Source of the DNA: Brevibacillus sp.
GTDB taxonomy: Bacteria; Bacillota; Bacilli; Brevibacillales; Brevibacillaceae
Direction of reading: 5' to 3'
Assembly (NCBI GenBank): GCA_029240815.1
Contig: JARDZO010000138.1
Coordinates: 1-38,576 of the forward strand
DNA length: 38,576 nt
This document shows positions 3,190-38,576 of this stretch, one piece after another; the first letter of the stretch is position 1, and each line of letters opens with the position of its first letter. The notes beneath the pieces are model-generated. The model was given only the letters and a program-made list of their open reading frames with translations, searched no databases and had not been told where the DNA came from. A program made the position numbers and the translations under genes.

Positions 3190-3913
3190 GTACATCTCCT
3201 CCCAATCTTTTCAGCATTTCTTGATACGCTTCTTCTACGTTGCCCAAATCACGGCGGAAGCGGTCTTTATCCAGCTTTTCGTTTGTTTCGGAGTCCCAGA
3301 ACCGGCACGTGTCCGGCGATATTTCATCGGCGAGGAGAATTTCTCCGTCCGCAGTTTTGCCAAATTCCAATTTAAAATCGACTAATGTGATGTTGCGCTC
3401 CCGCAAGTATGGACGCAGTACTTCATTGACTGCCAAGCCCATGCGCTCAAGGGTCGCCTGATCACTTTCGCTCGCGATCCCCAACACTTTGATGTGGGAG
3501 GCATTTACCAGCGGATCTCCCAAAGCATCGTCTTTGTAGTAGAACTCGACGACAGGCTGTGGAAGTACTGTTCCTTCCTCCATACCTAGCCGTTTTGCCA
3601 GTGAACCTGCTGCGATATTGCGGACGACTACTTCCAGCGGGATAATTTCCACTTTGCGAACGACCTGCTCAGTGGCTGACAACAGGCGAATGAAATGGTT
3701 GTCAATCCCACGCTCTTTTAGCATGGTGAAAAAGATAGCCGTAATCCGGTTGTTCAATTCACCTTTGCCCGTGATCTGCGCTCTTTTTTCTCCGTTAAAT
3801 GCTGTTGCGTCGTCTTTATACTCCACCCAGTACTGATCAGGCGTCGATGTCCGATAAATACGTTTCGCCTTGCCTTCGTAGAGTTGTTCCTGTTTTTCCA
3901 CTGTAGGAGCCAC
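3182..3913 (-). CDS. purC: Phosphoribosylaminoimidazole-succinocarboxamide (SAICAR) synthase
   Basis: Full-length PurC (about 240 residues), which joins CAIR and aspartate with ATP to make SAICAR. Recognisable blocks are [12 protein letters not shown] (ATP-binding strand near the N-terminus), [11 protein letters not shown], the [10 protein letters not shown] segment and [10 protein letters not shown]. It is the first gene of the transcript here; purE, purK and purB, which often precede it, are absent. The start is uncertain: GTG 3911-3913 has a GGGAAGG directly against it, while GTG at codon 5 ([12 protein letters not shown]) has a better-spaced GGTGG. Expression is probably governed by the PurBox promoter upstream. 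Confidence 0.96.
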
Positions 3914-3965
3914 CTTCCCAGCTAAAAAGGTTGAGTTTCTATTAATTCACGAACGATTCAACTAC

Positions 3966-3994
3966 ATTAAAACACAATCATACGCATTTATCAA
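3966..3994 (-). promoter_or_regulatory. Sigma-A promoter of the purC operon
   Basis: On the minus strand TTGATA (3989-3994) and TTTAAT (3966-3971) are separated by exactly 17 bases, a good vegetative promoter. It lies about 50 bases before the purC start, so the leader is short and leaves no room for the guanine riboswitch found before the B. subtilis pur operon. Confidence 0.7.
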
Positions 3995-4000
3995 CGAAAA

Positions 4001-4035
4001 ATGAGCGAATGACGTTCGACAATTGTTCGGAAATT
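4001..4035 (-). promoter_or_regulatory. PurR operator (pair of PurBoxes)
   Basis: The minus strand carries ATTTCCGAACAAT (4022-4034), a perfect match to the known PurBox consensus AWWWCCGAACWWT. A degenerate inverted partner (ATGAGCGAATGAC, 4001-4013) gives CGAA-N16-TTCG, the spacing described for B. subtilis PurR. The pair sits just upstream of the purC -35 box. This predicts PRPP-responsive repression by PurR. Confidence 0.75.
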
Positions 4036-4059
4036 ACTAGCAATCCAAGTTTGCACCTT

Positions 4060-4245
4060 ATGTTAATATTCGTTTTACAAACGTTCCACACCAACTTTAT
4101 ATATGCTCTTTATAATAGAACGAATGTCCAGCTATCCATCCAAAATTACGGCGCTATCCATCTCATTGATAACGTAACCAGTGGGACGATCGATATTCCT
4201 ACGGGGTTGCCCGTCCAATGGAACTGGAACGCTTTGTCGCCATGA
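4060..4245 (+). CDS. Possible small unknown protein, divergent from purC
   Basis: A 61-codon plus-strand frame with ATG at 4060 ends TGA at 4243-4245, two bases before a strong terminator stem. Its last 40 residues (NVQLSIQNYG through WNWNALSP) look protein-like. There is no ribosome site before the ATG, and the first part overlaps possible promoter elements (TTTACA 4074-4079, TATATA 4098-4103, TATAAT 4111-4116). The stretch could equally be a small RNA or an attenuator leader for the downstream dehydrogenase. I do not recognise the sequence. Confidence 0.3.
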   Translation: MLIFVLQTFHTNFIYALYNRTNVQLSIQNYGAIHLIDNVTSGTIDIPTGLPVQWNWNALSP

Positions 4246-4247
4246 TG

Positions 4248-4274
4248 GGAGCCCCTAAAAATGGGCTCCTTTTT
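4248..4274 (+). terminator. Rho-independent terminator
   Basis: GGAGCCC (4248-4254) pairs with GGGCTCC (4263-4269) and is followed by a run of T. It serves plus-strand transcription only, ending a short transcript that begins divergently from purC, 58 bases before the dehydrogenase start. Confidence 0.85.
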
Positions 4275-4332
4275 CATTCATGTGATAAACTGATTTTGGT
4301 GCAACCTATACGGAAAGAAGGAAGGTATTCAG

Positions 4333-5532
4333 ATGTTTCCCTTTGAGGTATCTTTTCCTACCCACATATACTTTGGCATTGGTGAACTGAAGCGTTTAGG
4401 CCATGCTGCTAAGACATTGGGAAAAAAGGCGTTGCTCGTCACGGGAGGCAATGCTGCAAAGCGTACAGGATTACTAGACCGGGTGCAGGAGCTCTTGCAG
4501 GAAGCGGATGTAGATAGCATTCTTTTTGACAAAATTGAACCCAATCCACGTACGGCTACCGTCGACGCGGGAGCCGCTCTCGCTCGTCAACATGCGTGCG
4601 ACTTCGTGCTGGCGGTTGGTGGCGGGTCAGTGATGGACGCTTCCAAGGCGATTGCGGCTGCTGCCCAGTCAGGCCGTCCGATCTATGATTATATGCGCGG
4701 CAATCCAAGCGGTACGGGAAAAGTGCTTGTCCCTGTACAGGAGGCTTTGCCGTTAATGACCGTCCCGACAGTTGCTGCAACTGGTTCTGAAGCCAATAAC
4801 ATCAGTGTACTGACCCATTGGGACACTCACGAAAAGTCATCCATCAACGGACCAGCTCTCTACCCCAAGATTGCGATACTCGATCCGTCCATCACGTATA
4901 CCGTTCCTGCTCGCGTCACAGCGGAGGCGAGTGCGGACATTTTCTCGCATTTATTTGAAAGCTATCTGATCAGTACAAGCGGTACGCATGTGCAGGATGG
5001 TGTGTCCGAGACCCTCATCCGTCTCGTCGTGGAGCACTCCCTTACAGCCATCGAACAACCCGATCACGCAGAAGCCCGCTCCACCCTGCTGTGGGTCAGC
5101 ACATTGGGTATTAGCCCATTTGCCAATGCCGGACGAGGAGCAGGAATGCCTTTGCACGGAGTAGAGCATCCTTTGAGCGGTATCTACGACATGGCGCACG
5201 GTCGCGGACTTGCGATTTTGTCTCTTCCTTATTTTAAACAGGTGATTCAAGAAGATCGCCCCGAGCGTCTGGCTCGCATGGGACGGCATTGCTTTGGGGT
5301 CACGGAAGAAGACGAATGGGCAGCGGCTGAGGCTACGATCGAAGCGGTGAAAAGCTGGTATGAACGCATGGGGATTACGGAGCGTCTCTCTGATTTTGGA
5401 GTTACGCGTGATGCACTGGCAGGCATGGCAGCAGAGGCTGTGACTATTGGCGGACGCGGTGTCGGACATTTGTCCAGCTCTCGTAAACTGAATGCGGAAG
5501 ACATCGTAAAAATCTACGAAGCCTGCTTATAA
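4333..5532 (+). CDS. Iron-containing alcohol dehydrogenase
   Basis: A 399-residue group III (iron-dependent) alcohol dehydrogenase, resembling the butanol dehydrogenase/YugJ-YugK branch; it would interconvert an alcohol and aldehyde with NAD(P)H. The N-terminal half holds the nucleotide-binding GGGSVMD (residues 96-102) and the TVPTVAATGSE block (143-153). The metal ligands fit the family: D202 and H206 in ADIFSH, H275 in GMPLHGVEHP, and H289 in MAHGRGL, the last two 14 residues apart as in FucO. GGAAGG lies before the ATG. A terminated small transcript precedes it and no partner gene overlaps it. The physiological substrate cannot be told from sequence. Confidence 0.93.
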   Translation: MFPFEVSFPTHIYFGIGELKRLGHAAKTLGKKALLVTGGNAAKRTGLLDRVQELLQEADVDSILFDKIEPNPRTATVDAGAALARQHACDFVLAVGGGSVMDASKAIAAAAQSGRPIYDYMRGNPSGTGKVLVPVQEALPLMTVPTVAATGSEANNISVLTHWDTHEKSSINGPALYPKIAILDPSITYTVPARVTAEASADIFSHLFESYLISTSGTHVQDGVSETLIRLVVEHSLTAIEQPDHAEARSTLLWVSTLGISPFANAGRGAGMPLHGVEHPLSGIYDMAHGRGLAILSLPYFKQVIQEDRPERLARMGRHCFGVTEEDEWAAAEATIEAVKSWYERMGITERLSDFGVTRDALAGMAAEAVTIGGRGVGHLSSSRKLNAEDIVKIYEACL

Positions 5533-5618
5533 GGCTTTGCATATACACTGGCAAGCTCCCTTAAAATTGTGCAATAATATATCTAATAAAAAAATTTTTA
5601 CTATGGAGGTTGCGAAAC

Positions 5619-8539: not shown

Positions 8540-8713
8540 GCCCGTTCCCCCTTTTGAAAATGGATGTACTCCGAATCTTTCGTCTTTTTAGCTGGGAATT
8601 CCTTTCTTTCTGGCTTACAACTTCGTAAGGTACTGGAAAGGAAAATCGATTTCGAGTTGGCGCAATCCTTGCTACTATAGAACATGACTTCAAGGAACAT
8701 ACGGAGGGTACCA

Positions 8714-32061: not shown

Positions 32062-32250
32062 TTGGTGGTCGATCAGACTGTGGTGGAGAAGAGGAAAAAG
32101 GGGAAAACACTATAGCGATAGGGACACTGCTTGGATGATTGACTGTCCAGCTCCATTCCAAAAGTGGAACGGCGTCCAAAGTAACTGGCTCGCGGGAGCC
32201 TCTCAGAGGTGGACGCTCAAGCGTGTTCCCCTTTTTCCTCGGCCAGCCTT
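32062..32250. repeat. Structured repeat element A
   Basis: Long outer arms (GAGGAAAAAGGGGAAAACAC at 32091-32110; GTGTTCCCCTTTTTCCTC at 32223-32240) enclose a core with nested stems: GGAAC/GTTCC (32166-32170, 32225-32229), GCGTCCA/TGGACGC (32172-32178, 32210-32216) and GGCTC/GAGCC. The conserved core words GCGTCCAAAGTA and CAGAGGTGGACGC recur in element B at the window end. The element fills much of the gene-free region 31967-32400 and could be a structured RNA or a mobile palindromic repeat. Confidence 0.7.
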
Positions 32251-33035: not shown

Positions 33036-34922
33036 TTATCGGGACATGGATCGCTTCAGATGAAACAAGTAGCGATTGCGGATAATCCAAAAGTAGATCG
33101 CTTGGACGACTACAAAGCTGAGCAGTACAATCGCAGTCGGCTTGACGACGGACGCTATGAGCATGATCTTTAACAAGCTTTGCAAAGAGACGAACGCGAC
33201 CATGCTGTGAATGATCGCCACGACGATCGGTACAAAGAACAAGAGGGCAATCTGGATGGTCACAATGCGGGACAATTCCTGATCAGAAAGTCCGATTTTC
33301 GATATCGCACCGTATTGCCGCTTGTCGTTCTCCAGATCTGTGTACAGACGGAAGTAAAGAAAGCTGGCCGCTGCGACAAAGAACAGCACCCCTACAAACA
33401 GTCCAATAAAAAGAGCCGTATTCGCCATCTGCTTCATCGAGTGATAGACCGGGGCACGGGCAGAAAAGTAGTAGTGATCCCCGTAGTGCTCGATTTGCTC
33501 TTGCAGCTTCAGGCTGATCTCCTGCGTATCTTTCCATTTCGGCACGACGTATCCGTAGCGCATCTCCTCATCCAAGCCGGTTAGACCGTCGTAGACAGCA
33601 TCCGGTATGACGGCCAGCCGTTCGAAATCAAGCCCGCTCAGCAGCGGATTCATTTTCGTGTCCGTTTTGACGATCAGTTGGCGCTGACCGACATCCAGTA
33701 CCTTGCTTTCCACTGCATCGCCAAACCATCGAACCACCAGGAACGCCTCATTGTCATTTAGCTTCAGTTCCCTCGTATTCGCAGCGATTGCGAATTGATT
33801 GTAGTCCGTCAGCTTGACCACACCAACCTTTTCCTCATTCACCTTTTGGGGCAAAATCCGCATCATCACCTGGTGCTTTTCAAAAGAAAATCCAGCTTGC
33901 TGCAGTCCGTTTTCAATCAAAGAAAGATGCTTTTGTTCCTCCAGATTGCCCTTTTTCGTTTGATATTCAAAAGCAAACGGATTGGTCTTGACCACTGTTT
34001 CCTGGATGGACCCGGCCAAAGCTGCCAACGTCCCGATGGCACAAAAGGCGATCGTCGAAACGATGCAGACGAGAAAAAACATCCGTGCATTGTCTTTCAT
34101 CCGGTAGTCCAGATCTGACAGCGTAATCAGGTTGGTCCGTTTCCAATAAAAGGAGCGGTTCCTCTTTAGAAAGCCGATGAGAAATACGCTCATCTGTGTG
34201 AAGAGCAAGTACGTCCCGGCGATCGTCAAGACTGTAACGGGCAGAAGCAGGACCACCACAGAGATTCCGTCTGCCGTGAGCGCGAGCGTATACGCGATGA
34301 TTAACAGCCCGGCTGCCAGCAGCGAGAGAAACACGGAAGCCTTTGGTTCTCTCTTGGGTCTTTGACTCCCCTGGAGCAGATCCAGCAAGCTGCGGCTACG
34401 CAATAACAAGACGGTAAAAAAGGAAATCGCTACGAACAGAATCAGAAACGCGACGAAAGTCAAGCTGATCGCCTGCCAGGGAAAGTAAAACGCCAATGCC
34501 TGTACGTCCAGCAAAAACCCTGCAAATTGAAAGAACAGCTTGCCTAGCACAAGCCCCAGCCCAATTCCAAAAATAATGGAGACGATACCGATGAGCATAT
34601 TTTCCATAAAGATCAGCAGGTTGCGTTGCTTCGCCGTCATCCCGTGCATGAACAGAATGCCGAACTCTTTCTCCCTCTTTTTCAAAAAGGCACCTACACA
34701 GTAAAAGAGAAAGAAAAACGCGAACAGAAAGATGATGTATTCCGCCACCATCATCCCGGTCGCGACAGACCCATGAATCTCTTCATCGGCAATCCCCGGA
34801 TGAAAAATGAACATCGCATAGACAAAAAAGATCATGACGGAAATGACGCTGCTCAAGAAGAAGGCAGCATACGTACGCTTGTTGCGCAAAACGTTGTTAC
34901 ACGCGAATTGTCGAAAGGTCAT
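33036..34922 (-). CDS. Bce-type ABC transporter permease
   Basis: A 628-residue permease of the BceB/PsdB/YxdM family, which confers resistance to bacitracin-like or lantibiotic peptides and passes the signal to its kinase. ATG 34920-34922 follows GGGAGGGAAC and begins MTFRQFACNNVLRNKRTYAAFF, a family hallmark. There are about ten membrane segments: four pairs arranged as FtsX-like units, with a large extracellular domain of about 200 residues (roughly 320-520) in the second half. It overlaps the ATPase gene by 26 bases. Which antibiotic it handles cannot be read from sequence. Confidence 0.93.
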   Translation of the reverse strand: MTFRQFACNNVLRNKRTYAAFFLSSVISVMIFFVYAMFIFHPGIADEEIHGSVATGMMVAEYIIFLFAFFFLFYCVGAFLKKREKEFGILFMHGMTAKQRNLLIFMENMLIGIVSIIFGIGLGLVLGKLFFQFAGFLLDVQALAFYFPWQAISLTFVAFLILFVAISFFTVLLLRSRSLLDLLQGSQRPKREPKASVFLSLLAAGLLIIAYTLALTADGISVVVLLLPVTVLTIAGTYLLFTQMSVFLIGFLKRNRSFYWKRTNLITLSDLDYRMKDNARMFFLVCIVSTIAFCAIGTLAALAGSIQETVVKTNPFAFEYQTKKGNLEEQKHLSLIENGLQQAGFSFEKHQVMMRILPQKVNEEKVGVVKLTDYNQFAIAANTRELKLNDNEAFLVVRWFGDAVESKVLDVGQRQLIVKTDTKMNPLLSGLDFERLAVIPDAVYDGLTGLDEEMRYGYVVPKWKDTQEISLKLQEQIEHYGDHYYFSARAPVYHSMKQMANTALFIGLFVGVLFFVAAASFLYFRLYTDLENDKRQYGAISKIGLSDQELSRIVTIQIALLFFVPIVVAIIHSMVAFVSLQSLLKIMLIASVVKPTAIVLLSFVVVQAIYFWIIRNRYLFHLKRSMSR

Positions 34923-35667
34923 AGTTGTTCCCTCCCAAAAACGACAGTGCGTCAATGATCTTCTGGAAGAACACCTGGCGACTCTCTCCCCGGTACATTT
35001 CGTTGTGCAACTGGCCATCCTTGATAAAAATAACGCGGTGGCAATAGCTCGCTGCCAAGGCATCATGCGTCACCATCATCATCGTCGTATTTTCCGATTT
35101 ATTGATCGCTTCCAGCGTTTCCATCACGCTTCGCGATGATTTCGAATCGAGATTGCCCGTCGGTTCATCTGCGAGCAAGAGCGACGGCGTGTGGATGATG
35201 GCGCGTGCGATCGCCGTCCGTTGTCGCTGTCCGCCAGATACTTCGAACGTGCGCTTGTCCAGGATTTCCTGGATGCCCAGCTTAGCAGCGATCGTCTGCA
35301 GCTTTTCCTCCATGACCGTTACGCTCTCACCCTCCAGCGTGAGCGGCAGTACGATATTTTCTCCGATCGTCAGCGTATCGAGCAGATTAAAGTCTTGAAA
35401 GACGAATCCCAGCTCCTTGCGCCGAAACAGCGCGAGCTTATCTTTTTTTAATAAATGAGGGTTGGTTCCATTTAAAAAAACGGCTCCTGAAGTCGGAGCG
35501 TCGATGGTGGAGATCATGTTTAACAGCGTGGTTTTCCCGCTGCCTGACGGTCCCATGATGCCCACAAACTCTCCTCTGCGAATCGTAAAATCTATATCAG
35601 TCAGCGCGCGGTAAGTAACCTTGCCTCCGTATATTTTACTCAGACTTTTCACCTGCAACATGTCCAT
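34897..35667 (-). CDS. Bce-type ABC transporter ATPase
   Basis: A 256-residue ATPase of the MacB/BceA type: [33 protein letters not shown] (Walker A), FVFQDFNLLDTLTIGENI (Q-loop), VSGGQRQRTAIARAI (signature), LLLADEPTGNLDSK (Walker B), and the H-loop in VTHDALAA. ATG 35665-35667 follows AAAGGGG. A promoter with a conserved operator lies in the 3' end of the kinase gene, so the transporter can be induced separately from its regulators. Confidence 0.95.
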   Translation of the reverse strand: MDMLQVKSLSKIYGGKVTYRALTDIDFTIRRGEFVGIMGPSGSGKTTLLNMISTIDAPTSGAVFLNGTNPHLLKKDKLALFRRKELGFVFQDFNLLDTLTIGENIVLPLTLEGESVTVMEEKLQTIAAKLGIQEILDKRTFEVSGGQRQRTAIARAIIHTPSLLLADEPTGNLDSKSSRSVMETLEAINKSENTTMMMVTHDALAASYCHRVIFIKDGQLHNEMYRGESRQVFFQKIIDALSFLGGNNYDLSTIRV

Positions 35668-35697: not shown

Positions 35698-35762
35698 ACT
35701 ATACGGAAGCGCGCTTCGTACCGCCATCGAATTAACTTTCAGCTTTCTTACGATCTTGTAAG
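35698..35762 (-). promoter_or_regulatory. Inducible promoter and operator of the Bce-type ABC genes
   Basis: Read on the minus strand: CTTACAAGATCGTAAG (35747-35762), CTGAAAGTTAATTCGATGG (35724-35742), then a poor -35 (TGGCGG, 35721-35726), 17 bases, and -10 TATAGT (35698-35703). The same block with its -10 at identical spacing precedes the ECF sigma gene. A weak -35 just downstream of a dyad is typical of a promoter activated by an OmpR-family regulator, most likely the adjacent one. The 17-base spacer also holds the perfect palindrome GAAGCGCGCTTC (35706-35717). Confidence 0.75.
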
Positions 35763-36748
35763 GTTGGGAGTACCGCGGACATGATGACCCGCACCGTCGT
35801 TCCCACACCTACTTCGGATTCCAGCTCTACCCCGTGATGCAAGCGTCCACAAATTTCTTTGACTAAATACAGACCCATTCCCGTTGATTCCGGGTATTTG
35901 CGGCCATTTTCTCCTGTAAAATACGGCTGAAACACACGCCTGATGTCCTCTGGAGGAATGCCGATCCCATAATCCTGCACCTCCAGCGCGACATTCGGGC
36001 CAAGCTCATAAGCACGGATTGTCACCTTGTTACTTTTCCCTGCTGAATAGCGAACAGCATTGGTCAACAGCTGAGTTAAAACAAAGGAAAGCCACTTATC
36101 GTCCGATTCCACTCGCCACTGCTCGTCCACTTTTAGCTCGGGATATACCTGATTACGGATGAACAGACGCTTGTTTTCCGCGAGTACATTTTGTGCCAAA
36201 CTGCGCAGCGTCACCGGTTCTACGAGGAAATCCTGCTCAAATCGATCCAGCCGGGCGATATACAAAACGGTTTCCAGCCCTCGCTTGATCCGATCCACTT
36301 CTTCCCGGACACTTTCTGCCGTCGGATCATCTTCATTTTGCAGCAACAGATGAATGACCGAGATAGGGGTCTTCATCTGATGCACCCACTGCTGCATGAA
36401 CGTCGTATAGTCGCGTTGCTTGTTTTCATACGCATGCAGCTGTTCCTTGTACAGACGGTAATGCTCGAGAAAGGTCTCATCCAGTGCACGGCATAACGCT
36501 GCATTGCCGTGCGTCTGCGTCAATTCCTCCAGCGACTGCACCGAATTGCTCAAGCGCTGGTAGATCGATCGGTGGGTCAAATAACGCACTACCATAAATG
36601 CTCCCGCAAAAAAAATCGACAGGAACACGGCATAAATCATGAGCGATTCGTTCCAATAGCCATCCAGCGAAATGATGAGCAAAAGCAAAATGAGCTGAAC
36701 GAGAAAAAAGACAGCAAAGGCCCATTGATCTCGGAGAAACAGCTTCAT
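35732..36748 (-). CDS. Bce-type intramembrane-sensing histidine kinase
   Basis: A 338-residue kinase with two N-terminal membrane helices (about 11-28 and 37-55) joined by only a few residues (DGYWNES), the mark of BceS-type kinases that do not sense ligand themselves but read the transporter. The phospho-acceptor is H123 in WVHQMKTPISVI. The ATPase domain has the N box LTQLLTNAVRYS, G1 box QDYGIGIP and STGMGLYLVKEI. It overlaps the regulator gene by four bases, and its last codons contain the operator for the transporter genes. Confidence 0.94.
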   Translation of the reverse strand: MKLFLRDQWAFAVFFLVQLILLLLIISLDGYWNESLMIYAVFLSIFFAGAFMVVRYLTHRSIYQRLSNSVQSLEELTQTHGNAALCRALDETFLEHYRLYKEQLHAYENKQRDYTTFMQQWVHQMKTPISVIHLLLQNEDDPTAESVREEVDRIKRGLETVLYIARLDRFEQDFLVEPVTLRSLAQNVLAENKRLFIRNQVYPELKVDEQWRVESDDKWLSFVLTQLLTNAVRYSAGKSNKVTIRAYELGPNVALEVQDYGIGIPPEDIRRVFQPYFTGENGRKYPESTGMGLYLVKEICGRLHHGVELESEVGVGTTVRVIMSAVLPTLQDRKKAES

Positions 36749-37443
36749 TGTCCGTCCTCCCAGACCGCCTTCAAGCGATAGCCAGAGCCACGCACCGTCT
36801 CTACTGCTCCCTCCAGACCCATATCCTTCAGCTTTCCGCGAACTCGTGTAATATAGACGTTCAACGTGTTCTCATCCACAAACTGCTCATCCCAGAGCTT
36901 TTCCAAGAGTCGCTCACGGCTGACGACGCGCGGGTATTGATTCATCAGCGCTTCCAGCAGCAGCGCTTCCTTTTTGCTCAGCTCGACCTTGTTCTCGTGG
37001 ATGGATAGCTCCATTCGTTCCAGGAACAGCTTGAGACCTGCCACCTCGACAGTCCGCTCCCCTTCCTGAGGAGCGTACAAGCCGTAGGCGCGCCGAAGCT
37101 GACTGCGGATTTTTGCCATGACCACATCGTAGTCAAACGGCTTGGTAATGTAGTCATCTGCCCCGTTTTCCAGCGCCATGACCTGGTCCATTTTACTGTC
37201 CCGGGCTGAGATGAACAGGATTGGGCAGTTCGATTCCTGGCGCATTTGACGGCACCAGTAGAACCCGTCGAATTTAGGCAAGTTCACATCGAGCAGAACC
37301 AGATCCGGGTGCACCTCTGTGAACACATCCATGACCCGGTCAAAATGCTCGACATTCACTGTATGATAACCGTATTTTTCCAACTGACTCTGCAGTAATT
37401 GATTGATTTTAGGATCGTCCTCTACGATCATAATGGTCGACAT
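36745..37443 (-). CDS. OmpR-family response regulator of the Bce module
   Basis: A 232-residue regulator. The receiver domain has acidic residues E8-D9-D10, phospho-acceptor D52 in LVLLDVNLPKFDG, and the lysine in ITKPF; a winged-helix DNA-binding domain follows (VELSKKEALLLEALMNQYPRVVSRERLLEKLWDE). It is first in the regulator-kinase-ATPase-permease order of the Bce/PsdR family, and lies downstream of the ECF gene's terminator. The likely binding sites are the two conserved dyads at 35747-35762 and 38130-38145. Confidence 0.95.
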   Translation of the reverse strand: MSTIMIVEDDPKINQLLQSQLEKYGYHTVNVEHFDRVMDVFTEVHPDLVLLDVNLPKFDGFYWCRQMRQESNCPILFISARDSKMDQVMALENGADDYITKPFDYDVVMAKIRSQLRRAYGLYAPQEGERTVEVAGLKLFLERMELSIHENKVELSKKEALLLEALMNQYPRVVSRERLLEKLWDEQFVDENTLNVYITRVRGKLKDMGLEGAVETVRGSGYRLKAVWEDGQ

Positions 37444-37499
37444 CGATTGTAACTCCCCTCATTCCTAAGTCTTGCATGTAATCACCCTCTACTATACCA

Positions 37500-37528
37500 A
37501 AAAAAGGATGGACCTGTTGTCCATCCTA
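37500..37528 (-). terminator. Terminator of the ECF sigma gene
   Basis: GGATGGAC (37506-37513) pairs with GTCCATCC (37519-37526). On the minus strand it runs into TTTTTTT, and it overlaps the sigma stop codon. Confidence 0.9.
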
Positions 37529-38041
37529 AGCTTGGGCCTTCATCATCTGTTGGAGCTTTTTGATTCCGCGAAAATGCAGAATTTTAACCGATGCTTCCGT
37601 TTTTCCCAAGATCTCGGCAATTTCATTCATTCTCAGGTCAGCCAGATACCGGAGCTGAATCACGTTACGCTGATCCGCCGTCAAGGTATGTACCTTTTGC
37701 CACAACACATCCGTCGATTCTTGCGTCATGAGACATTCCTCCGGCAGATCATCCGTTGCCTTCATGGAGGAAAACGTCTCCTGATCGACCGGGCATTCCC
37801 GCTTTTTGCGCATGTGATCGATCAATGCATTATGGGCAATGCGGAAAATCCACGCTCCGAACGGATGGCGGCCATCGTATTGCTCCAGCTTGGAGTATAC
37901 CTTGATGAACACCGTCGTGGTCAGATCCTCGACATCCCAGACATTTTTGACGCGATAGCGAAAATAGCGATATATTTTGGCGGAGTATTCTTCGTAAATT
38001 TGTTGATGATTCAATTGTGGGTATAAGAGTGCGGTATTCAT
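37526..38041 (-). CDS. ECF-type RNA polymerase sigma factor
   Basis: A 171-residue sigma-70 family protein with only regions 2 and 4. Region 2 spans FRYRVKNVWDVEDLTTTVFIKVYSKL to WIFRIAHNALIDHMRKKR (-10 recognition). Region 4 spans LTADQRNVIQLRYLADLRMNEIAEILGKTEASVKILHFRGIKKLQQ (helix-turn-helix, -35 recognition). No anti-sigma gene follows: a terminator overlaps its stop codon, so it is an orphan in this window. GGGAGA precedes the ATG. Control seems to lie at its promoter, which shares the Bce operator. Confidence 0.92.
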   Translation of the reverse strand: MNTALLYPQLNHQQIYEEYSAKIYRYFRYRVKNVWDVEDLTTTVFIKVYSKLEQYDGRHPFGAWIFRIAHNALIDHMRKKRECPVDQETFSSMKATDDLPEECLMTQESTDVLWQKVHTLTADQRNVIQLRYLADLRMNEIAEILGKTEASVKILHFRGIKKLQQMMKAQA

Positions 38042-38080
38042 TATCGATCTCCCATTTCATGATCCGTATGAGTTGATTTC

Positions 38081-38145
38081 ATTGTAAAGGGGATCTGAAG
38101 TGGGAACTATCGAGTTAACTTTCAGGAACCTTACACTTTTGTAAG
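38081..38145 (-). promoter_or_regulatory. Promoter and operator of the ECF sigma gene
   Basis: On the minus strand: CTTACAAAAGTGTAAG (38130-38145), CTGAAAGTTAACTCGATAG (38107-38125), a poor -35 (TAGTTC, 38104-38109), 17 bases, and -10 TACAAT (38081-38086). All elements are offset by exactly 2383 bases from those before the Bce ABC genes, so their mutual spacing is identical. Confidence 0.75.
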
Positions 38146-38340: not shown

Positions 38341-38576
38341 CTTGGTCGGACTGTAGTGGAGGAGAGGAAAAAGGGGAAAACGCTCCAGCTTTATAGGAAC
38401 ACCTACTGGGGGTCATCCCTGTCCGGCTACATGCAAAAAACGAAACCGCGTCCAAAGTAGCCGTCTCCGGGAGTTTTTCAGAGGTGGACGCTTAAAACCG
38501 TGTTTCGTTTTTTCCATTGCGCCTTGGTTGGTGTTCCTAAGATCTTCCGCTTATTTCCCCTTTTTCCTCAGCCAGC
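38341..38576. repeat. Structured repeat element B (may continue past the window)
   Basis: Outer arms GAGGAAAAAGGGGAAA (38364-38379) and TTTCCCCTTTTTCCTC (38554-38569) are perfectly complementary. Inside lie AGGAACACC/GGTGTTCCT (38395-38403, 38530-38538), CGAAAC/GTTTCG (38441-38446, 38502-38507) and GCGTCCA/TGGACGC (38448-38454, 38485-38491). The core and outer arms match element A, while the CGAAAC stem replaces A's GGAAC stem with pairing kept. CCTACTGGGGGT (38402-38413) is shared with element C. No coding frame of note is present between 38150 and the end. Confidence 0.7.

Follow-up and report, generated by a model that had tools for sequence, protein, structure and literature searches.

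In the usual description, a Bce-type module is a pump served by a sensor of its own. The BceRSAB and PsdRSAB modules of Firmicutes have a common gene set, a kinase with two hydrophobic segments, an FtsX permease with a large loop and an operator consensus ahead of the transporter. For Bce-type response regulators, this consensus is given as AnnTTACnAnnnnGTnAG (PMC10858260), and in Lactobacillus paracasei the same source names derAB, mprF, dlt and psdAB as the regulon of ApsR/PsdR. Two-component control of ECF sigma factors has been described elsewhere. According to the cited accounts, the sigE-cseA-cseB-cseC operon of Streptomyces coelicolor (ECF39) combines an anti-sigma-free ECF sigma factor with a two-component system that senses cell-wall antibiotics (PMC6767563, PMC8999054); sigE is transcribed under CseBC, and more than 90% of transcription ends right after sigE (PMC6767563). 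Control by a conserved nearby two-component system has been proposed for ECF234 of Paenibacillus polymyxa (work cited in PMC8999054), and in Porphyromonas gingivalis the two-component system PorY-PorX is described as acting through the ECF sigma factor SigP (PMC4800418).

The Brevibacillus locus analysed here shares the features listed above for BceRSAB and PsdRSAB, but the targets of its regulator appear to include an ECF sigma gene and a lipoprotein gene as well, and perhaps other envelope genes. As with Streptomyces sigE, to judge from the cited description, the ECF gene has a terminator of its own, no anti-sigma gene was seen beside it in the loci inspected and two-component control is a candidate; the likeness is one of layout. 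In contrast to the present locus, a Bce transporter is absent from the sigE system, and the lipoprotein gene here is a distant target outside the operon. The ApsR/PsdR system of L. paracasei has the same operator consensus and is likewise a case of Bce-type regulators with several envelope targets, although, unlike here, no sigma factor is among the targets named in that source. ECF234 resembles our locus in having a two-component system near the ECF gene. PorY-PorX-SigP likewise runs from a two-component system to an ECF sigma factor, but as described it serves secretion control, with no Bce transporter named. Both halves of the arrangement are of known kinds; their combination was absent from the open-access literature that we searched, in which no link from a Bce-type regulator to an ECF gene was found, although this is not proof of absence.

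A Bce/Psd-type module adjoins an ECF sigma gene

The window is the full 38,576-nt stretch of DNA that was analysed. The module genes all lie on its minus strand, in the order ECF sigma gene, response regulator, intramembrane kinase, ABC ATPase and FtsX-type permease (Table 1), so that an OmpR-type response regulator adjoins a kinase and both transporter genes. The stretch of approximately 200 residues between hydrophobic segments of the permease is predicted to be extracytoplasmic, and the operator consensus AnnTTACnAnnnnGTnAG is present ahead of the transporter. Among solved structures, the permease matched PsdB best (9ugg, 299 bits) and BceB second (7tcg, 109 bits), while the best match of the kinase was Sensor protein BceS (131 bits). 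Since the permease is nearest to PsdB and then to BceB, and the kinase is nearest to BceS, the regulator, kinase and transporter of this five-gene neighbourhood are, judged by sequence, a Bce/Psd-type module. The closer relation of the permease to PsdB than to BceB suggests lantibiotic-like lipid II binders as likelier inducers than bacitracin.

Table 1. Positions of the sites and genes discussed, numbered along the window
Feature	Position	Strand	Description
Site A, before bceAB	35698..35762	-	Palindrome 35762-35747; GAAAG 35740-35736; TCGAT 35730-35726; -10 TATAGT 35703-35698
Site B, before the ECF sigma gene	38081..38145	-	Palindrome 38145-38130; second box GAAAG 38123-38119; TCGAT 38113-38109; -10 TACAAT 38086-38081
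Site C, before the lipoprotein gene	8614..8678	+	Same promoter architecture; -10 TACTAT 8673-8678
ECF sigma factor, 171 aa	37526..38041	-	Sigma70_r2 and r4 domains
bceR/psdR-like response regulator, 232 aa	36745..37443	-	Receiver and Trans_reg_C; Asp52
bceS/psdS-like intramembrane-sensing kinase, 338 aa	35732..36748	-	Two hydrophobic segments with a 7-residue loop between them
bceA/psdA-like ABC ATPase	34897..35667	-	Domain match
bceB/psdB-like FtsX permease, 628 aa	33036..34922	-	Stretch of ~200 residues (300-503) between hydrophobic segments
Intrinsic terminator after the ECF gene	37505..37527	-	9-bp stem, 5-nt loop, T run
TGGTATAGT before bceR	37491..37499	-	Probably an extended -10, belonging to a separate promoter for bceRS, from the sequence
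Lipoprotein, 198 aa	8714..9310	+	No Pfam family; predicted fold nearest the YpeB C-terminal domain

A 65-base block occurs three times in the window

The full block reads CTTACAA-N4-GTAAG-N6-GAAAG-N5-TCGAT-N22-TAnnnT. When this 65-base pattern was searched for with up to three mismatches allowed, the window gave three matches (sites A, B and C), every one of them with no mismatch, compared to a mean of 0.00 matches in 100 dinucleotide-preserving shuffles of the window. The initial annotation had placed the block before bceA and before the ECF gene, with a -10 at equal distance and one copy in the end of the kinase gene. Both copies match this description, with TATAGT and TACAAT as -10 hexamers, and site A overlaps the last codons and the stop of bceS; the statement that the block occurs twice holds for sites A and B but not as a count, since site C had been overlooked. 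Sites A and B lie near each other and are almost the same in sequence. Site C lies approximately 27–29 kb from them and has GGAAAGG where they have TGAAAGT. The -10 hexamer is separated from the start codon by 30 bases at bceA, 39 at the ECF gene and 35 at the lipoprotein gene.

Short motifs taken from the block were not significant in the window: the palindrome alone, with two mismatches, was found 13 times (8.55 expected), and CTGAAAGTTAA alone, with one mismatch, was found twice (0.56 expected, with 12 of 100 shuffles as good). The full architecture was therefore used for the search, and the excess over chance belongs to the whole architecture, not to the short motifs. A reverse-orientation site towards a DUF169 gene was rejected because, by eye, it had neither the TCGAT box nor the -10 spacing.

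The palindrome core of the block is the Bce-type consensus, with the outer A of AnnTTACnAnnnnGTnAG present at sites A and B and absent at site C. Related Bce modules carry TGTAAG in place of TGAAAG as their second box, in the pattern TGTAAG-N5-TG(A/T)AAG-N5-TCGATRG, and half sites can therefore be seen to recur every 11 bases. Three second-box variants were found (TGAAAG, TGTAAG and TGCAAG), while CTTAC/GTAAG hardly varies across sites. Bce-type promoters are generally described as needing a second site, and we read the block as a main palindromic site followed by a weaker downstream one.

The block has the character of a promoter

Sites were collected from many genomes with a search pattern of which the -10 was no part. 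Sites lying within 110 bases of the end of a locus were left out, as were identical 100-mers. Of the 79 distinct sites that remained, 78 had TAnnnT at +43 (85%) or +44 (14%) after GTAAG, against a background of 2.2%. After thinning to less than 75% identity, the -10 was found at that distance in 54 of 55 sites. The -35 had been described as poor, and indeed 52 of these 54 sites match TTGACA at no more than three of six positions. From its sequence, then, the block is a promoter with a -10 at a near-fixed distance and no good -35. The case that it is a widespread repeat unlinked to promoters was not upheld. In 78 of the 79 sites, the -10 distances differ by no more than one base.

Over site A, L001 and L009–L011 read the kinase tail in different frames, while the DNA is nearly unchanged. 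Since the frames differ and the DNA is kept, selection here appears to act on the DNA site rather than on the protein.

A sample of the class gave a site (at most one mismatch) in 54 of 398 genomes and a single match for the control. Outside the order set described below there were 27 sites in 22 genomes; 24 of them have the -10, and two of the remaining three carry GATAAT in its place. The next gene was a bceA homologue at 16 of the 27 sites, an ECF gene at two and a weak sigma-like ORF at one, the other eight being followed by other genes or a contig end.

Site B and the ECF gene are conserved together

In the predicted ECF protein, the sigma domains PF04542, PF04545 and PF08281 all scored above cut-off. 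The BldN family (TIGR02952) was the best NCBIfam match, though its cut-off was not reached (148 versus 206 bits). Across 39 genomes of the order, an ECF orthologue 72–98% identical over nearly its full length was present in 26; in each of these, site B precedes the ECF gene and site A lies at the end of the kinase gene. An orthologous kinase (at least 68% identity) was found in 28 genomes, with the block before an ECF gene in every one of them; the ECF gene and the kinase gene share a contig in 26 of the 28 and lie on different contigs in G006 and G008. In G039, where the ECF gene is frameshifted, and in G040, where its product is 50% identical, the kinase is 68% identical and the palindrome, the TGAAA box and TACAAT all precede the ECF gene, with AACGAAATGG in the TCGAT position. 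Both sites A and B are also present in B. migulae (L019), which was left out of all genome counts. An orphan ECF gene is very probably driven by a Bce/Psd-type regulator alongside the transporter, in an arrangement conserved within Brevibacillus.

Site B could be bound and the ECF product nevertheless be a relic output, no longer an active downstream regulator. The frameshift in G039, a truncated ECF gene in G018 and the lack of a close orthologue in several Bce-bearing species would fit such a loss; we consider it unlikely given 72–98% identity over nearly the full ECF length in 26 genomes.

The hairpin that follows the ECF gene has a z of -3.19 versus shuffles. A terminator scan of the window found three terminator-like sites where 2.8 were expected, so the call rests on position and on the hairpins of relatives. 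Similar ones could be made out by eye downstream of the ECF gene in most of 14 relatives, though not in L019. The gap between the ECF gene and bceR is 82 nt in the window. By eye, TGGTATAGT also precedes bceR in six of the 14 relatives (L005, L007 and L012–L015), and most of the others have a TATAGT-like -10 without the TG. It is probable that bceRS has its own promoter, separate from the ECF transcript. When ORFs of at least 100 aa were inspected by eye, no anti-sigma gene was seen upstream of the ECF gene in L174, L001, L013 and L015, and none was seen by eye in the long ECF–bceR gaps of L004 and L007. In the absence of a neighbouring anti-sigma gene in these loci, as far as inspected, the ECF output is probably set by transcription of the gene.

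The block co-occurs with the BceS-like kinase

The order set comprises 39 genomes, in which sites were called at two mismatches or fewer and a BceS-like kinase at E 1e-25. Sites were found in 36 of these genomes (146 sites, with one match for a reversed-pattern control), and so was the kinase, the best 55 candidates having been scored in many genomes; scoring all candidates in 12 genomes gave the same counts. G016, G018 and G024 lack both, so that the site is present in 36 of 36 genomes with the kinase and in none of the other three. By a hand calculation that ignores relatedness, the chance of the same three genomes lacking both is 1 in 9139. A first, stricter TGAAA pattern had given 57 matches in 25 genomes versus five control matches, with none in G016, G021, G022 and G024. 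G021 has Bce-type permeases (BceB homologues) and its sites carry TGTAAG; G022, which is outside the order set, has no site and no BceB match.

Two genomes weaken the co-occurrence. What was counted as the kinase in G017 is a remnant of 89 residues fused to bceB, and site B nonetheless persists. At this locus (L180, contig C3), positions 3389–4894 join the front part of bceS in frame to the final part of bceB, with the catalytic region of the kinase lost; bceR, the ECF gene and site B are retained, and no bceA was found there. In G018, a MAG, a relic site B below the search threshold lies beside the truncated ECF gene, and the kinase was not found.

The regulator at site B could be another OmpR-type protein or a second Bce paralogue, leaving BceR in control of site A only. 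Cross-regulation among Bce-type regulators is known in L. paracasei, according to PMC10858260, second-box variants exist and G015 has three BceS-like matches. However, a single BceS-like match was found in 25 of the 26 genomes that carry a close orthologue of the ECF (best 55 candidates scored in many), which makes the adjacent BceR the likely activator. A regulator search at E 1e-45 or better returned the focal regulator alone, once each in nine of 11 genomes, and did not find it in G016 and G024; the other response regulators of the five genomes compared are at most 39% identical to the focal BceR. With sites A and B so alike and so close, and no sites in order-set genomes lacking the kinase, a different regulator at site B is quite improbable. 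Under autoregulation, the ECF factor would recognize the block as the promoter of its own gene, and its regulon would include bceAB and the lipoprotein gene. This reading could draw on the position of the block before the sigma gene and on GTAAG-N17-CGAT, which might be read as an ECF-type -35/-10, but it is very improbable. In other Bacilli, 16 of 27 sites with this architecture stand ahead of bceA homologues, and a site precedes bceAB or bceB in G020, G023 and G025, where the best ECF match reaches only 42–45%. The ECF relative in G016 (55%) has no site, and the 20 kb read there holds no Bce genes. In addition, a sigma-A-like -10 lies further downstream at a near-constant distance.

Co-occurrence of site and kinase, the consensus core and the block before the ECF gene in 28 of 28 genomes with the orthologous kinase support the earlier proposal of one regulator at both promoters. 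The transporter and the ECF gene both stand as its proposed targets; as a complete list the pair falls short, there being more than two. Very probably, the adjacent Bce/Psd-type response regulator uses all three sites, A, B and C, as its operator-promoters, through which it would switch on bceAB, the ECF gene and the lipoprotein gene.

We hypothesize that a peptide antibiotic is sensed by the transporter–kinase complex and that BceS then phosphorylates BceR. BceR would first occupy the palindrome CTTACAA-N4-GTAAG, then the downstream half sites spaced at 11 bp (TGAAAG, TCGATRG), and would bring RNA polymerase carrying sigma-A to a promoter where a -10 is present and a usable -35 is lacking. 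The outputs switched on would be bceAB, the ECF sigma factor as its own terminated transcript, and the lipoprotein. The result would be a two-component-to-sigma cascade with a presumed inducer and a presumed sigma regulon. If this is true, the expression of a set of envelope genes could shift together on one lantibiotic-like signal, a clear control point is gained for an ECF factor that apparently has no anti-sigma factor, and the reach of one antibiotic sensor may extend beyond the pump. The genus includes laboratory strains, in which such a cascade would be open to direct testing. The operator model (palindrome, half sites spaced at 11 bp, near-fixed -10) could also be a tool for finding Bce regulons across Bacilli.

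Further candidate targets

The lipoprotein encoded behind site C had 19 database matches, and those that name an organism all name Brevibacillus. Its predicted structure (pLDDT 84) shows a weak likeness to the YpeB C-terminal domain (E 1.6e-4, TM 0.46). In G032, the closest genome seen (ECF identity 98%), five sites pass the order-wide pattern, namely A, B, C and two more. The fourth precedes an ORF resembling the transglycosylase of L150 (PF00912) and the fifth a second BceAB-like transporter. Since a distant response regulator (28% identity, at 778–182 of L184) lies approximately 2.2 kb beyond the permease of this second transporter, it can only be guessed that the focal BceR controls it. 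In other genomes of the order, PAP2, DUF418 and MFS genes stand behind similar sites.

The second transporter of G032 (L184) consists of a bceA-like gene at 5606–4842 and a permease gene at 4829–2946, preceded by a Bce-type site; no BceS-like kinase match was found in the 8 kb read. It is possibly a resistance-only transporter controlled in trans.

In several Brevibacillus genomes, the first ORF after a Bce-type site is a conserved one of 33 codons, reading about M[RK][KR]..., ...D[TA]K..., ...E..VK[LC] (L112, L114, L116, L127, L128, L122, L155 and L156). It precedes a GyrA-like ORF (named by eye), an MFS gene or a bceAB paralogue, and may encode a small antibiotic-induced protein.

Other ECF genes behind Bce-type sites

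In G021, also a MAG, a different ECF gene lies behind a Bce-type site directly after bceB, and the focal ECF query gave no match to it at 1e-5. In G285 and G301, which are syntenic with each other here, an ECF gene 24–25% identical to the focal one follows a Bce-type site, and the 15 kb read around this ECF gene showed no Bce gene. A sigma-like ORF after a site in G188 was excluded as an ECF gene because its Sigma70_r2 match scored 19.2 bits versus a cut-off of 24. The ECF genes of G021 and of G285/G301 are possible further recruitments, two in number. We lean slightly towards the view that, in Bacilli, an ECF gene has become a second output of Bce-type modules on several occasions, which would make these modules a Gram-positive counterpart of CseBC–sigmaE that is triggered by a transporter, with three separate recruitments (the Brevibacillus ECF gene in 28 genomes, G021 and G285/G301).

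Repeats near the locus

An interspersed repeat of approximately 230 bp occupies positions 38345–38576 of the window, with a second, partial copy at about 32073–32191. Rfam had no match in the window, this repeat included. There are 20 matches in G032, 20 in G001, at least 38 in G004 and at least 30 in G007, and no match in G013 and G016; in G004 and G007, copies also lie in the ECF–bceR gap. In B. panacihumi W25 (L011:7481), an extra near-copy of site B lies 2.4 kb upstream of the true one and diverges where the -10 is expected; it is probably a partial duplication.
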